Source: Bradyrhizobium lablabi (GTDB lineage: Bacteria; Pseudomonadota; Alphaproteobacteria; Rhizobiales; Xanthobacteraceae). From it: DNA of 64,000 bases. The translations under genes and the position numbers were made by a program. The notes under the pieces are model-generated. The model was not told where the DNA came from, made no database searches, and saw only the letters and a list, made by a program, of their open reading frames with translations. The stretch lies in the NCBI RefSeq assembly GCF_018129385.1, contig NZ_JAFCLN010000019.1, positions 62,001-126,000 on the forward strand, written 5' to 3'. Of this stretch, positions 9,320 through 29,257 are shown in pieces (the stretch's first letter is position 1; every line of letters starts with the position of its first letter).

Positions 9320-9690
9320 CAGCAGGCAAGGCCGCTCCAGCAAGATCCGGAAGATGAACGGAATTAAGTGGAGGCTTCTGTTGCCAGGTGCCTCCGAACC
9401 CCGCCTGACGGAGCTTAACCCGTCAGGACTTTAAGTTGGTCTTTCAAACTGCGTTACGCAGCCTGAGCAACCGGAGCAAAGTTGTCGTTGGCAACTATTG
9501 CAATAGCCCGATAACGGCGGAACAATACCGGGAAAAAACACGCCCTTTACGCCCTCGTCGATCCTGTTTCGCCCCCGCCGAAACCCGCCGCTTTCGAAGG
9601 GTGGGCTTGGGTGGAGGCGCCGGGTACCGCCCCCGGGTCCGAATGGTTTATTGCGACGGCCATTTATTTCCATAGCCGGCGAACCGGCAC
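9320..9690 (-). ncRNA. ssrA: tmRNA (circularly permuted, two-piece alphaproteobacterial type)
   Basis: Read on the minus strand, the acceptor piece comes first. It has a -10-like TATATT (9695-9700), then a T-arm-like CCGGG/CCCGG hairpin, and ends with acceptor strand CGCCTCC followed by ACC near 9610-9619. After a short spacer the coding piece begins at about 9576 with GGGGGCG AAACAGGATCGACG; its GGGGGCG can pair with CGCCTCC (one G-U). The tag frame is 9492-9454: codons for ANDNFAPVAQAA then TAA. Downstream hairpins follow (CCTGACGG/CCGTCAGG and GGAGGC/GCCTCC). Piece ends, especially the 3' end of the coding RNA, are approximate. A terminal CCA is not fully encoded (ACCC), so the last A may be added. 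Confidence 0.93.
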
Positions 9691-9818
9691 CCTCAATATA
9701 GGCTGCAAAGATTGAGAAAAACAGAGCCGCTTTTGGCGCATTTTGCCGTGGAACAAGCCTTGGAACACGCCGAATTGGCTTGGCGCTGGCAAAAAAACGG
9801 CGTTCTAGTTTTGGTGTC

Positions 9819-20887: not shown

Positions 20888-21815
20888 GCAGGCGGGATCA
20901 TCCGGTTTGAAGGCCGTGCTTATCGCAGGGCCGACCGCCAGCGGCAAGTCGGCGCTGGCGCTCGAACTGGCGCAAAAAGCCGGCGGAATCGTCATCAATA
21001 CCGATTCCATGCAGGTCTATCGCGACCTGCGCATCATCACCGCACGGCCGACGCCGGATGAGGAGGCGCTGGCGCCGCACCGGCTCTACGGCCATGTCGA
21101 TGCGTCCGTGAACTTTTCCGCCGGCGCCTGGGTGGCCGATGCGACAAAGGTGCTCGCTGAAGCGCGCGCGCAAAAACGGTTGCCGATTTTTATCGGCGGC
21201 TCCGGTCTCTATTTCAAGGCGCTGACGCGCGGACTGTCGGCGGTGCCGCCGATCCCCGCCGAGATACGCGAAAGCGTGCGCAACCGGTTGGAGCACGGCG
21301 GTGTGGAGGCGCTGCATGCCGAGCTCGCGCAACGCGATCCGGTCTCCGCCGAACGCCTGAAGCCACGCGACCGCACGCGCATCGCGCGCGCCCTGGAAGT
21401 CATCGAGGCCACCGGCCGCGCGCTGCCGGACTGGCACCGCGAAGGCCTGCCGCCGCTGCTGCCATCAGGGGAATTCTCCGCGCTGTTCCTCGCGCCCGAA
21501 CGCGAACAACTCTATGCGCGGATCGACGCCCGCTTCGGCGTGATGCTGACATCAGGCGCCATCGAGGAGGTCGCCGCGCTGGCCAAACGGCAGCTTGACC
21601 CGCTGCTGCCGGCCATGAAGGCCCACGGCGTGCCGGCCCTGATCCGCTATTTGCGCGGCGAGATCGGTTTGGCCGAAGCGGCCGAAATCGGCCGCGCCGA
21701 CACCCGCCATTACGCCAAACGACAGTTCACCTGGTTCAGGCACCAATTGCCGGAGTTTGAATGGGTGAAGCCGGAGGAGGCGAGGGGGTGGGTGATGGCC
21801 CAGACCTCATCCTGA
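20886..21815 (+). CDS. miaA: tRNA dimethylallyltransferase
   Basis: A 309-residue enzyme that prenylates A37 of tRNAs reading UNN codons. The N-terminal P-loop [17 protein letters not shown] and the [18 protein letters not shown] and [12 protein letters not shown] motifs are diagnostic. The ATG at 20886 overlaps the serB start; a TTG at 20907 (giving [13 protein letters not shown]) is an alternative start with a GGCGGGA site. The last residues (AQTSS) and the stop codon lie inside a family D repeat, so the C-terminus is repeat-derived. Confidence 0.94.
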
Positions 21816-21912
21816 GGAGCCGCGCAGCGGCGTCTCGAAGGATGGGCCGCGGGCGAGATGGGGGCCTTCATGGTTCGAGACGCCTGCTTCGCAGGCTCCT
21901 CACCATGAGGAA
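21802..21912. repeat. Palindromic intergenic repeat, family D copy 1
   Basis: This unit contains CCTCATCCTGAGGAGC, GCGTCTCGAAGGATG, and the mirror GGTTCGAGACGC ... GCTCCTCACCATGAGG. A second copy lies at 29270-29392. It supplies the miaA stop codon and overlaps its last 5 codons. Confidence 0.75.
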
Positions 21913-22019
21913 CACAGAGCTGCCATGACGCCTTTTTGTGCCGTTGCAGCAATTTCGCACTCGCCGAATGCCGGAAAGCCCGCTAATCTGCCCAAATCGC
22001 GCCAGCAAACCGCCTTGCC

Positions 22020-22047
22020 TTGACTTTCAAAGGCATACGGCTATAAC
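22020..22047 (+). promoter_or_regulatory. Promoter of the ilv leader
   Basis: TTGACT (22020-22025), a 16-bp spacer and TATAAC (22042-22047) form a good sigma-70-type promoter. The predicted start near 22054 is about 26 bp before the leader peptide ATG, which fits an attenuated biosynthetic operon. Confidence 0.65.
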
Positions 22048-22079
22048 CCGCGCAACCTTTGGGAAGTCCGAGCGGCCAA

Positions 22080-22145
22080 ATGCGTAACATTATTACCAAA
22101 CTCGCCCTTATCGTCGTACCCAGGTGCACCGCCGGGGATGGCTAG
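22080..22145 (+). CDS. ilv leader peptide
   Basis: A 21-codon frame reads MRNIITKLALIVVPRCTAGDG and ends at TAG. Seven of residues 4-13 are Ile, Leu or Val (I4 I5 L8 L10 I11 V12 V13), the amino acids made by the following operon. It lies between a promoter and a terminator before ilvI, so ribosome stalling on it is expected to control attenuation. The assignment rests on composition and placement and is strong. Confidence 0.9.
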   Translation: MRNIITKLALIVVPRCTAGDG

Positions 22146-22194
22146 GGCCATCCAAATTCTGGCGGTGCGCATGGGGCCTCTGGGGCCCTTTTTT
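22126..22194 (+). terminator. ilv attenuator (pause hairpins and terminator)
   Basis: A pause structure pairs GCACCGCC (22126-22133) with GGCGGTGC (22161-22168). It encloses the inner stem GGATGGC-TAGG-GCCATCC (22136-22153). The terminator stem GGGCC/GGCCC with loop TCTGG (22174-22188) is followed directly by six T. The leader peptide stop lies in the inner stem, so ribosome position changes the folding. This is classical transcription attenuation by Ile/Leu/Val tRNA charging. Confidence 0.85.
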
Positions 22195-22250
22195 ATTTCC
22201 CGAAGTAAACAACCGAAAAGTCCGCGCAAACAGCGCATCCGGAGCAAGCC

Positions 22251-24026
22251 ATGAGTGACAAGAGCCACGATCCGAACCAGATGACGGGAGCCGCGATGAT
22301 CGTCCGCGCGCTGATCGATCACGGCGTGCAGCACCTCTTTGGCTATCCCGGCGGCGCGGTCCTTCCGATCTATGACGAGATCTTTCAGCAGAGCGAGGTC
22401 GAGCACATCCTGGTCCGCCACGAGCAGGGCGCCGGCCATGCTGCCGAAGGCTATGCGCGCTCCACCGGCAAGCCCGGCGTGGTGCTGGTGACGTCAGGCC
22501 CCGGCGCCACCAACATGGTGACGCCGCTGACCGATGCGCTGATGGATTCGATCCCCTTGGTCTGCATCACCGGACAAGTCCCCACTCATCTGATCGGCAA
22601 CGACGCGTTCCAGGAATGCGACACCGTCGGCATCACACGGCCCTGCACCAAGCACAACTGGCTGGTGCGCGACGTCAACGATCTCGCCATGGTGCTGCAC
22701 GAGGCGTTTTACGTCGCGACATCAGGCCGTCCCGGCCCCGTGCTGGTCGACGTGCCCAAGGACGTGCAGTTCGCCACCGGCACCTATCATCCGCCGCGCA
22801 AGTCGGACGTGCACGTCTCCTACACGCCGCGCGTCAAGGGCGATGCCGCGCAGATCCGCAAAGCCGTGTCGCTGCTGGCGAACGCCAAGCGGCCGGTGAT
22901 CTACAGCGGCGGCGGCGTCATCAATTCGGGACGCGGAGCCTCGAAGCTGCTGCGTGATCTGGTCGAGGCGACCGGCTTTCCGATCACCTCGACGCTGATG
23001 GGCCTCGGCGCCTATCCGGCCTCGGGCAAGAACTGGCTCGGCATGCTCGGCATGCACGGCACGTATGAAGCCAACATGGCGATGCATGATTGCGACGTCA
23101 TGCTGTGCGTCGGCGCGCGCTTCGACGACCGTATCACCGGCCGCGTCGATGCGTTCTCGCCCGCCTCGAAGAAGATCCACATCGACATCGATCCGTCGTC
23201 GATCAACAAGAACATCCGCGTCGACGTGCCGATCATCGGCGATGCCGGCAATATCCTGGGCGACATGCTTCAGGTGTTCAAGGCGGAGGCGAAGAAGCCG
23301 GACATCAAGTCGTGGTGGCAGCAGATCGCGATCTGGCGCGCCCGCAACTCGCTCTCCTACAAGAAGAGCAGGGACGTCATCCTGCCGCAGCAGGCGATCC
23401 AGACCCTGTTCGACGCCACGCGCGGGCATGACACCTACATCACGACCGAAGTCGGCCAACACCAGATGTGGGCTGCGCAGTTCTTCGGCTTCGAGGAACC
23501 GCACCGCTGGATGACCTCAGGCGGCCTCGGCACCATGGGCTATGGCCTCCCGGCGGCGCTGGGCGTGCAGGTCGCCCATCCCGACAGCCTGGTCATCGAC
23601 ATCGCGGGCGATGCCTCGGTGCAAATGACCATGCAGGAGATGTCGACGGCGGTTCAGTACGAGCTGCCGATAAAAATCTTCATCCTGAACAACCAGTACA
23701 TGGGCATGGTGCGGCAATGGCAGCAATTGCTGCACGGCAACCGCCTGTCGCACTCCTATTCCGAAGCGCTGCCGGATTTCGTCAAGCTGGCGGAAGCCTA
23801 TGGCGGCGTCGGCCTGCAAGCGACCAAGCCGTCCGACCTCGAAGGCGCGATCAAGGAGATGATCAAGGTCAAGCGTCCCGTGCTGTTCGACTGCCGCGTC
23901 GCCGCGCTGGAAAACTGTTTCCCGATGATCCCGTCCGGCAAGGCGCACAACGAGATGCTGTTGCCGGAGGAAGCCACCGATGAGGCCACCGCCACCGCCT
24001 TCGCCGGCGGCAAGGCGCTGGTGTGA
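22251..24026 (+). CDS. ilvI: Acetolactate synthase large subunit
   Basis: The 591-residue ThDP enzyme condenses pyruvate (or pyruvate and 2-oxobutyrate) in the first shared step of branched-chain amino acid synthesis. Catalytic Glu58 lies in HEQGAGHAAEGYAR, after FGYPGGAVLPIYDE. The C-terminal cofactor loop DIAGDASVQMTMQEMSTA binds Mg-ThDP. It starts 56 bp after the attenuator terminator. The regulatory subunit IlvN is 1.3 kb downstream, separated by the threonine dehydratase-like gene. Confidence 0.97.
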   Translation: MSDKSHDPNQMTGAAMIVRALIDHGVQHLFGYPGGAVLPIYDEIFQQSEVEHILVRHEQGAGHAAEGYARSTGKPGVVLVTSGPGATNMVTPLTDALMDSIPLVCITGQVPTHLIGNDAFQECDTVGITRPCTKHNWLVRDVNDLAMVLHEAFYVATSGRPGPVLVDVPKDVQFATGTYHPPRKSDVHVSYTPRVKGDAAQIRKAVSLLANAKRPVIYSGGGVINSGRGASKLLRDLVEATGFPITSTLMGLGAYPASGKNWLGMLGMHGTYEANMAMHDCDVMLCVGARFDDRITGRVDAFSPASKKIHIDIDPSSINKNIRVDVPIIGDAGNILGDMLQVFKAEAKKPDIKSWWQQIAIWRARNSLSYKKSRDVILPQQAIQTLFDATRGHDTYITTEVGQHQMWAAQFFGFEEPHRWMTSGGLGTMGYGLPAALGVQVAHPDSLVIDIAGDASVQMTMQEMSTAVQYELPIKIFILNNQYMGMVRQWQQLLHGNRLSHSYSEALPDFVKLAEAYGGVGLQATKPSDLEGAIKEMIKVKRPVLFDCRVAALENCFPMIPSGKAHNEMLLPEEATDEATATAFAGGKALV

Positions 24027-24043
24027 TGATGGAGACACATTCC

Positions 24044-24151
24044 GCCGTCATCGCCCGGCTTGACCGGGCGATCCAGTACGCCGCGGCCTCTCGATTGCTC
24101 CGCGGCGTCTCTGGAATACTGGATCCCCGCCTTCGCGGGGATGACGAGCGC
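24044..24151. repeat. Palindromic intergenic repeat, family A copy 2
   Basis: CCGTCATCGCCCGGCTTGACC and GGGCGATCCAGTACGCC form one arm. The other arm is TCTGGAATACTGGATCCCCGC plus TTCGCGGGGATGACGAG. It lies upstream of the threonine dehydratase-like gene and is closely matched by copy 3 downstream of it. Confidence 0.8.
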
Positions 24152-25192: not shown

Positions 25193-25299
25193 GACGTCAT
25201 CGTCCGGCTTGACCGGACGATCCAGTACGCCGCGGCTTATCGGTTCCATCGCAACTGCTCTGGAATACTGGATCCCCGCTTTCGCGGGGATGACGAGAC
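25193..25299. repeat. Palindromic intergenic repeat, family A copy 3
   Basis: CGTCATCGTCCGGCTTGACC, then GATCCAGTACGCCGCGGC and TCTGGAATACTGGATCCCC ... GCGGGGATGACGAG. It matches copy 2 closely and lies 25 bp before ilvN. Confidence 0.8.

Positions 25300-28201: not shown

Positions 28202-29257
<1,056 letters not shown>

Follow-up and report, generated by a model that had tools for sequence, protein, structure and literature searches.

The ilvI gene of the window, that is, of the whole 64,000-nucleotide stretch of Bradyrhizobium lablabi DNA analyzed in this study, is preceded by an element that is very likely a ribosome-mediated leader-peptide transcription attenuator of the ilvI operon. The leader carries Ile, Leu, and Val codons at the last five positions before a Pro codon, just upstream of a conserved hairpin and a terminator, and this arrangement therefore supports a leader-peptide attenuator. 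The parts of the element are directly visible, as are their conservation and the bases common to two RNA structures. Attenuation by means of these two structures appears to be the most likely reading of the folding calculations, although the modeled switching between them was not cleanly reproduced.

Genomic context and promoter

The window lies in a 7.24-Mb genome, and the closest named relatives of its IlvI protein are those of Bradyrhizobium, with up to 94% identity. The ilvI gene, which encodes the large subunit of acetolactate synthase (NF006581, 1188.8 bits), occupies positions 22251 to 24026 of the forward strand, as do all features of the leader described below; miaA is the upstream neighbor of the leader. 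A threonine dehydratase gene (NF004771) and then ilvH (NF008864) are found 3' of ilvI, followed further downstream by genes for methyltransferase-like and transporter-like proteins, both of which scored under the cutoffs of their models. From a reading of its sequence, we take the open reading frame at 28238 to 29257, downstream of ilvI and ilvH, to be ilvC. The threonine dehydratase gene between ilvI and ilvH is flanked by 103-nt direct repeats that are 87% identical (24046 to 24148 and 25195 to 25297). Between miaA and the promoter, the segment from 21805 to 21915 contains an inverted-repeat-looking sequence (CTCATCCTGAGGAGCC...GGCTCCTCACCATGAGGA), which is perhaps a dispersed palindromic repeat.

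A promoter had been noted upstream of the leader in the initial annotation, and a putative alpha-type sigma-70 promoter, CTTGAC-N16-CTATAA, was indeed read at 22019 to 22046 (CTTGAC at 22019 to 22024, a 16-nt spacer, and CTATAA at 22041 to 22046); it recurs in relatives. A strict sigma-70 consensus scan of the 401-base region returned no promoter because the scan requires a T at the last −10 position. The promoter call rests on the alpha-type pattern together with the recurrence in relatives.

An 18-nt box, CGCGCAACCTTTGGGAAG (22049 to 22066), lies where the transcript is expected to begin and is strongly conserved in close relatives: the pattern CGCGCAACCTTTG[GA] was present in 46 of 51 loci, the window counted. 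The box core, GCGCAA, was located no more than 62 nt upstream of 59 of the 69 family leaders, compared with 4 of the 57 Rhizobiaceae-type leaders. No second exact copy of CGCAACCTTTGGGAA was found anywhere in the genome. Pairing between the box and the bases that follow the Val codons (UUUGGG:CCCAGG) was rejected, since the box is constant while its partner becomes CCCUGG or CCUUGG.

Leader peptide

The leader peptide, MRNIITKLALIVVPRCTAGDG, is encoded by 21 codons at 22080 to 22145, and its TAG stop codon (22143 to 22145) falls in the apical loop of the inner hairpin formed by GGATGGC and GCCATCC, the same place as in relatives. Both the placement of the stop codon within this hairpin and the residues Ile4, Ile5, Leu8, Leu10, Ile11, Val12, and Val13 agree with the initial annotation.

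Leader codons were compared in 87 leaders, of which 46 came from the genus and named relatives and the rest from close relatives. The five codons before Pro encoded Ile, Leu, or Val in 80, 85, 77, 87, and 85 of the 87 leaders, respectively, and the last of them was GTA in 81; changes at these five positions were mainly swaps among Ile, Leu, Val, and Ala. The leader is, as expected of an attenuator, a short open reading frame rich in codons for the product of the pathway (77 to 87 of the 87 leaders). Further toward the N terminus, position 5 was Ile or Val in all 87 leaders, whereas position 4 was Ile in 40, Lys in 37, Phe in 9, and Leu in 1. Conservation of the leader codons in relatives, proposed earlier as a check, was therefore borne out for the five positions before Pro but not for the variable Ile4. 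The variant codons comprised 14 silent and 57 nonsilent changes; with 24% silent changes expected, silent changes were not enriched.

Hairpins and terminator

The intrinsic terminator reported previously ahead of ilvI is present at 22173 to 22194, with a stem at 22173 to 22179 and 22183 to 22189 and six T residues at 22189 to 22194. Upstream of it, the inner hairpin (5' arm GGATGGC, 22136 to 22142; 3' arm GCCATCC, 22147 to 22153) is carried by a 12-bp outer stem (22124 to 22135 and 22159 to 22170) that was overlooked in the initial annotation. The fold of 22120 to 22172 had an energy of −35.9 kcal and a z score of −5.62, and none of 200 shuffled sequences folded as well; for the whole leader, the z score was −2.48, with 3 of 200 shuffled sequences as good. 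Across 46 distinct leaders, 93.1% of the cells in the outer and inner stems were paired, and two-sided changes occurred at 5 stem pairs, compared with 1.6 in shuffled alignments and 1 to 3 in slid versions. In the inner hairpin, 4 of 7 pairs showed two-sided changes. Pairing of the inner hairpin with the terminator (GGCC:GGCC) is possible in the window; this candidate was rejected, as it is not possible in L003, L014, and L018.

A DNA-level match to this region was obtained in 194 of the 195 genomes of the genus, a count that includes the genome of the window itself, and Rhodopseudomonas, Nitrobacter, and Afipia are among the named relatives with the same layout. For the wider family, with the genus of the window excluded, stretches upstream of ilvI were taken from 80 of the 153 genomes that had an IlvI match. 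A scan for a short open reading frame that contains clustered Ile, Leu, and Val codons and has a terminator hairpin downstream was positive in 69 of these 80; among the 69, the reading frame taken in L198 was the wrong one, and L191 apparently lacks the outer stem. In the remaining 11 of the 80, an MRN- or MRK-like leader (MSK or MNS in others), a stem, and a GC hairpin were found by eye. The terminators located in this way have four or five T residues in L173, L176, L182, L193, and L194 and three in L186. In L178, L188, L190, L197, and L200, distant family members that keep the leader and the hairpin, the T run is broken (TTCGTCG or TTCGTTG), and an intrinsic terminator is doubtful. An intrinsic terminator lies between the leader and ilvI and recurs in relatives, although its T run is interrupted in these 5 of the 80 family leaders.

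In Rhizobiaceae-type leaders, the peptide differs and the plan is the same; here, too, the apical loop contains the stop codon. The distance from the stop codon to the T run was 42 to 52 nt in both the Bradyrhizobium and the Rhizobiaceae types; the scan that gave these distances missed most minus-strand loci, which were placed with another pattern. In one metagenome-assembled genome (L080), the end of the leader open reading frame is joined straight to the end of the terminator and the rest of the hairpin is absent, which may reflect either a genuine deletion or faulty assembly.

A terminator-like site by itself is not rare in this region: the terminator scan of the 401 bases found one site where 0.5 was expected per shuffle, which alone is weak evidence. 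Such a site would be accounted for by a constitutive terminator that separates miaA and ilvI, with an Ile/Val-rich open reading frame arising next to it by chance. Against this, the branched-chain amino acid (BCAA) codons, the stop position, and the hairpin recur together across the family and the Rhizobiaceae, and the leader codons are conserved in relatives, which is the outcome that counts against a chance reading frame. We consider a constitutive terminator highly improbable.

Comparison with Escherichia coli attenuators

The initial annotation regarded all parts of classical attenuation as visible and the hairpin as a pause hairpin; it named no antiterminator. If the attenuator were of the classical four-segment type, stalling of a ribosome at the Val codons would mask the 5' arm of the outer stem, positions 22159 to 22166 would pair with the 5' arm and loop of the terminator (the 2:3 pairing), and the hairpin would act as a protector or pause structure. 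The leader was subjected to a masking test in which the RNA was cut just before the 3' arm of the terminator and the bases upstream of the leading edge of the ribosome were hidden; the readout was the cost of freeing the 5' arm and loop of the terminator, obtained by folding with masks and without kinetics. Seven E. coli leaders fetched by accession (ilvL, ivbL, leuL, thrL, trpL, hisL, and pheL) served as positive controls. Edge positions are in nucleotides, with 0 at the first base of the final regulatory codon, which is the last Val codon in the window.

When the better of the values at +6 and +9 was taken, opening cost 7.8 to 17.2 kcal in all seven E. coli leaders. With the edge about 9 nt beyond the stop codon, the cost was 0.1 to 3.1 kcal in five of them, and in ilvL and leuL, where the stop codon is further on, the cost was 1.3 kcal at the last edge computed; for hisL, it rose again past the stop codon, to 10 to 13 kcal at +33 to +42. 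From this control profile, the working edge of the ribosome was set at about +6 to +9. The window behaved differently: opening cost 8.2 to 8.6 kcal for edges from −30 to 0 and 7.4 kcal at +3, then only 0.2 kcal at +6, 0.4 kcal at +9, and 1.5 kcal at +12, and 4 to 5 kcal beyond. The median of 46 leaders followed the same profile, and the median cost at +6, also in further close relatives, was 0.2 to 1.0 kcal. Since the terminator arm is free at +6 and +9, the trp-type state is absent here: masked folding did not yield a 2:3 antiterminator at the last regulatory codon together with a free terminator at the stop codon. The claim that every part of classical attenuation is visible is not supported by this profile, which is unlike that of the seven E. 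coli leaders. In the folding of alternative forms, which had been proposed as a check, two structures share bases (see below), and the trp-type state was not among the forms obtained.

Other evidence bears on the classical arrangement. When the edge is placed at +15, the terminator arm of the window is mostly paired (0.79), and a CUGG-C-GGU:GCC-U-CUGG hairpin of −7.9 kcal is predicted when only the last part is free; otherwise, the architecture matches. However, the arm is free at edges +6 to +9, where the seven E. coli leaders work, and arm pairing at +9, +12, and +15 was above the null in only 9%, 4%, and 20% of the 46 leaders, whereas all seven E. coli leaders were above the null at +9 (with single-leader P values of only 0.02 to 0.41). 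In addition, the 2:3 pairs (22159 to 22166 with 22176 to 22183) showed no excess covariation, as 482 of 500 shuffles reached the observed percentage paired. The classical four-segment arrangement is therefore judged unlikely.

Three measures were used for such comparisons, namely, the arm-paired probability, the opening cost, and the net gain of the terminator, and the first two disagree on the state without a ribosome. In the analysis of arm-paired probability against ribosome position, 19 loci in a set of 29 were left unplaced, and L048 and L049 were dropped. Equilibrium folding of the terminator against ribosome position was also tried and was abandoned, as only pheL of the seven E. coli controls switches.

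A candidate antiterminator

In the masking test, the terminator arm of the window is held by the hairpin itself. The sequence CCCA at 22119 to 22122, right after the last Val codon, can pair with UGGG at 22172 to 22175 as the base of a long hairpin, and three bases of the UGGG (22173 to 22175) belong to the 5' arm of the terminator stem, so that the two structures share bases. Because the CCCA:UGGG base overlaps the terminator arm, the supposed pause hairpin may instead be the top of an antiterminator. A pausing role, as annotated, is not supported by the masking test, in which the terminator arm was free with the last Val codon occupied, while the hairpin itself held the arm when the edge was upstream. 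Holding of the arm by an upstream edge is shared with ilvL, thrL, and ivbL, in which opening also costs 5 to 10 kcal at edge −30; the other four E. coli leaders do not show this.

Without a ribosome, the opening cost was 7.3 kcal, compared with 4.6 kcal in random sequences that keep the stems, and it exceeded the null in 93% of the 46 leaders. For the window alone, the cost was 8.4 kcal, compared with 5.3 kcal for the null, and 13% of 30 null sequences attained the cost of the window. A further 44 close relatives had IlvI proteins 84 to 92% identical (L191, seemingly without an outer stem, and L198, taken in the wrong frame, were excluded); in these, the cost for an edge placed at the last Val codon was 8.4 kcal, compared with 4.1 kcal, and 41 of the 44 were above the null.

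The letters of the helix vary among relatives (CCCA:UGGG, CCCUG:CAGGG, CCUU:AAGG, and CCCUGG:CCGGGG). In counts that, like all the others given here, ignore ancestry, a fourth base A (46 of 87 rows) was matched with U in 37 rows, C in 3, and A in 6, and a fourth base U (28 of 87 rows) was matched with A in 23, C in 5, and U in none; in the five rows with U and C, the register shifts and U meets G. The fourth base was C or G in the other 13 of the 87 rows, some of which arise from misplacement of the last Val codon by the scan. Likewise, when 41 distinct pairs were permuted, again with ancestry ignored, own partners fit better than swapped partners in 5,000 of 5,000 permutations; this test parsed 81 of 91 leaders, skipped 10 in which the stem was unparsed, and placed an artificial stem between the partners.

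Several results go against this helix or do not single it out. The arm-paired probability without a ribosome was 0.54, compared with 0.62 for the null, and was above the null in only 24% of the 46 leaders. Sliding CCCA:UGGG by one column paired more cells (91.8% versus 76.1%), as would be expected of runs of C and G. A mutual-information scan of 83 leaders mainly picked up lineage signal, and the base of the long hairpin did not stand out. The pairing was absent both from the more distant family group, in which 5 of 22 leaders were above the null, and from 55 Rhizobiaceae-type leaders, in which the median opening cost never exceeded 2.2 kcal and no antiterminator was found.

The terminator forms in the fold of 22055 to 22197 even though no ribosome is present. 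For the window, the net gain of the terminator was 0.0 kcal with the edge 12 to 24 nt before the last Val codon, 2.8 to 4.8 kcal at −9 to +3, 11.2 kcal at +6 (the maximum), 9.5 kcal at +9, and 3.5 kcal with the ribosome at the stop codon; there was no clear difference between a ribosome near the Leu and Ile codons and one at the stop codon. The medians of the 46 leaders were 1.4 to 2.2 kcal up to −9, 2.7 to 5.4 kcal from −6 to +3, about 11 kcal at +6 to +9, and 5.6 kcal at the stop codon. In E. coli, the median was 4 to 7 kcal around the last regulatory codon and rose to about 16 kcal at the stop codon. Since the window reaches its maximum when the last Val codons are occupied by the ribosome, valine starvation would not be expected to derepress the operon.

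Taken together, the long hairpin, whose base shares 22173 to 22175 with the terminator, is a candidate alternative structure that is supported by opening cost, paired base changes, and permutations but not by arm-paired probability and net gain, and it is limited to this clade. We put forward tentatively, as a possible reading of these models, that the long hairpin is the antiterminator of the ilvI attenuator in Bradyrhizobium and its close relatives.

We infer from these parts the order of events, the amino acid that matters, and the regulation of termination itself. RNA polymerase would start near 22050, and a ribosome would translate the leader peptide. A ribosome that runs through to the stop codon would melt the hairpin, the terminator at 22173 to 22194 could then form, and transcription would stop. 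If the ribosome were held on the Ile and Leu codons, 22119 to 22135 would be free and would fold into the long hairpin (22119 to 22175), the base of which would take up part of the 5' arm of the terminator, and the polymerase would read on into ilvI. If the long-hairpin model is true, the leader would distinguish leucine or isoleucine starvation from valine starvation. The leader is compact and conserved, it belongs to a genus that fixes nitrogen, and few base changes separate its antiterminator candidates.

Relationship to known attenuators

Vitreschak et al. reportedly predicted BCAA attenuators of ilvIH in alphaproteobacteria in 2004. As far as can be judged from excerpts of later papers that cite this work, an "ilvIH cis regulatory" element is listed in Sinorhizobium meliloti (PMC2573895) and an alphaproteobacterial ilvB leader peptide is mentioned (PMC1273637); by way of these citing papers, the predicted ilvIH and ilvB attenuators resemble the element in the window in gene and in bacterial group. 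A further paper, which cites the 1994 work of Tarleton, describes an ilv leader coding sequence before ilvIH in Caulobacter (PMC4117421). By that description, the Caulobacter ilvBN/ilvIH attenuator is alike in that its ilv genes are preceded by a rho-independent terminator and by a leader coding sequence containing Ile and Val codons. The E. coli attenuators also share a leader peptide, hairpins, and a terminator with the window, and in ilvL, thrL, and ivbL, as in the window, the terminator arm is held with an upstream edge. All seven E. coli leaders also hold the arm when the ribosome occupies the last regulatory codon, a state in which the arm of the window is free. The element had been called a good model for an alphaproteobacterial ilv operon. 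An ilv leader-peptide attenuator is supported, but it is not new, since the excerpted literature indicates that alphaproteobacterial ilvIH attenuation is already in print. We regard the element as a conserved case of a known kind of attenuator, in which only the RNA folding may be unusual.

Relationship to Rfam family RF02502

The leader matched the Rfam family RF02502 (Atu_C8) over its full length with 28.6 bits (E value of 3.6e-4 in 171 bases), which is below the gathering score of 50. In the whole genome, the ilvI leader was the best match (E value of 0.0036); a second match (L208; E value of 0.094) lies in a His-rich coding stretch and was taken as chance. At an E value of 0.001 or less, RF02502 matched 61 of the 121 genomes of the order, 18 of them over the cutoff, and none of 14 control genomes; the genome of the window was not among the 61. 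At the loose limit of an E value of 10, there were also matches in 10 of the 14 control genomes, none over the cutoff. In G214, the one of these genomes in which the place of the match was compared with that of ilvI, the match sits just upstream of ilvI.

Twelve loci fetched by their ilvI genes were also searched; L065, L079, L081, L056, L044, and L023 scored 95 to 122 bits, and the other six scored below 50. The RF02502 "sRNA" coincides with an ilvI leader and a BCAA peptide in L065 (1323 to 1444), L079 (1316 to 1435), and L081 (1316 to 1435), and the matching leaders at about 120 bits are the ilvI leaders of Agrobacterium and Rhizobium. The order of the outer stem, the inner hairpin (with UAA in RF02502), and the terminator is alike in RF02502 and the window, whereas Rfam labels the family a Rhizobiales sRNA and not an ilvI leader. 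The leader in the window is a distant, subthreshold relative of RF02502. According to PMC3738593, 32 Agrobacterium sRNAs from the Wilms study resemble segments of long 5' untranslated regions.

One explanation may be that the terminated leader, about 145 nt long, is a trans-acting small RNA, with attenuation as its source or a side effect. The sRNA typing of RF02502, which matches the ilvI leaders of L065, L079, and L081 at 120 to 122 bits and the window at 28.6 bits, points in this direction, and a precedent exists in rnTrpL of Sinorhizobium, as far as the excerpts of PMC7143759 and PMC10117765 describe it. However, attenuation explains the conserved BCAA peptide and the place before ilvI, although for the loci tested with RF02502 this place is not independent evidence, as they were fetched by their ilvI genes. 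A trans-acting role is considered quite unlikely.

In a joint reading of the ilvI attenuator of Bradyrhizobium and its close relatives and of the RF02502 matches, there would be no separate protector hairpin, and the long hairpin would itself be the antiterminator. The long hairpin would be on as long as the ribosome has not reached the last two Val codons, as in leucine or isoleucine starvation or without translation, and would be broken on entry into the last Val-Pro codons, so that valine starvation would not relieve termination; the RF02502 "sRNA" would be the terminated product of the Rhizobiaceae version. As a whole, this joint reading is possible, if rather on the unlikely side. We suggest that RF02502 is perhaps better described as an ilvI leader.

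In an Rfam search of the whole window, no family covered the leader at its gathering score, and only two tmRNA models were hit, both at 9367 to 9727, where an alphaproteobacterial tmRNA is located on the minus strand (309 bits).
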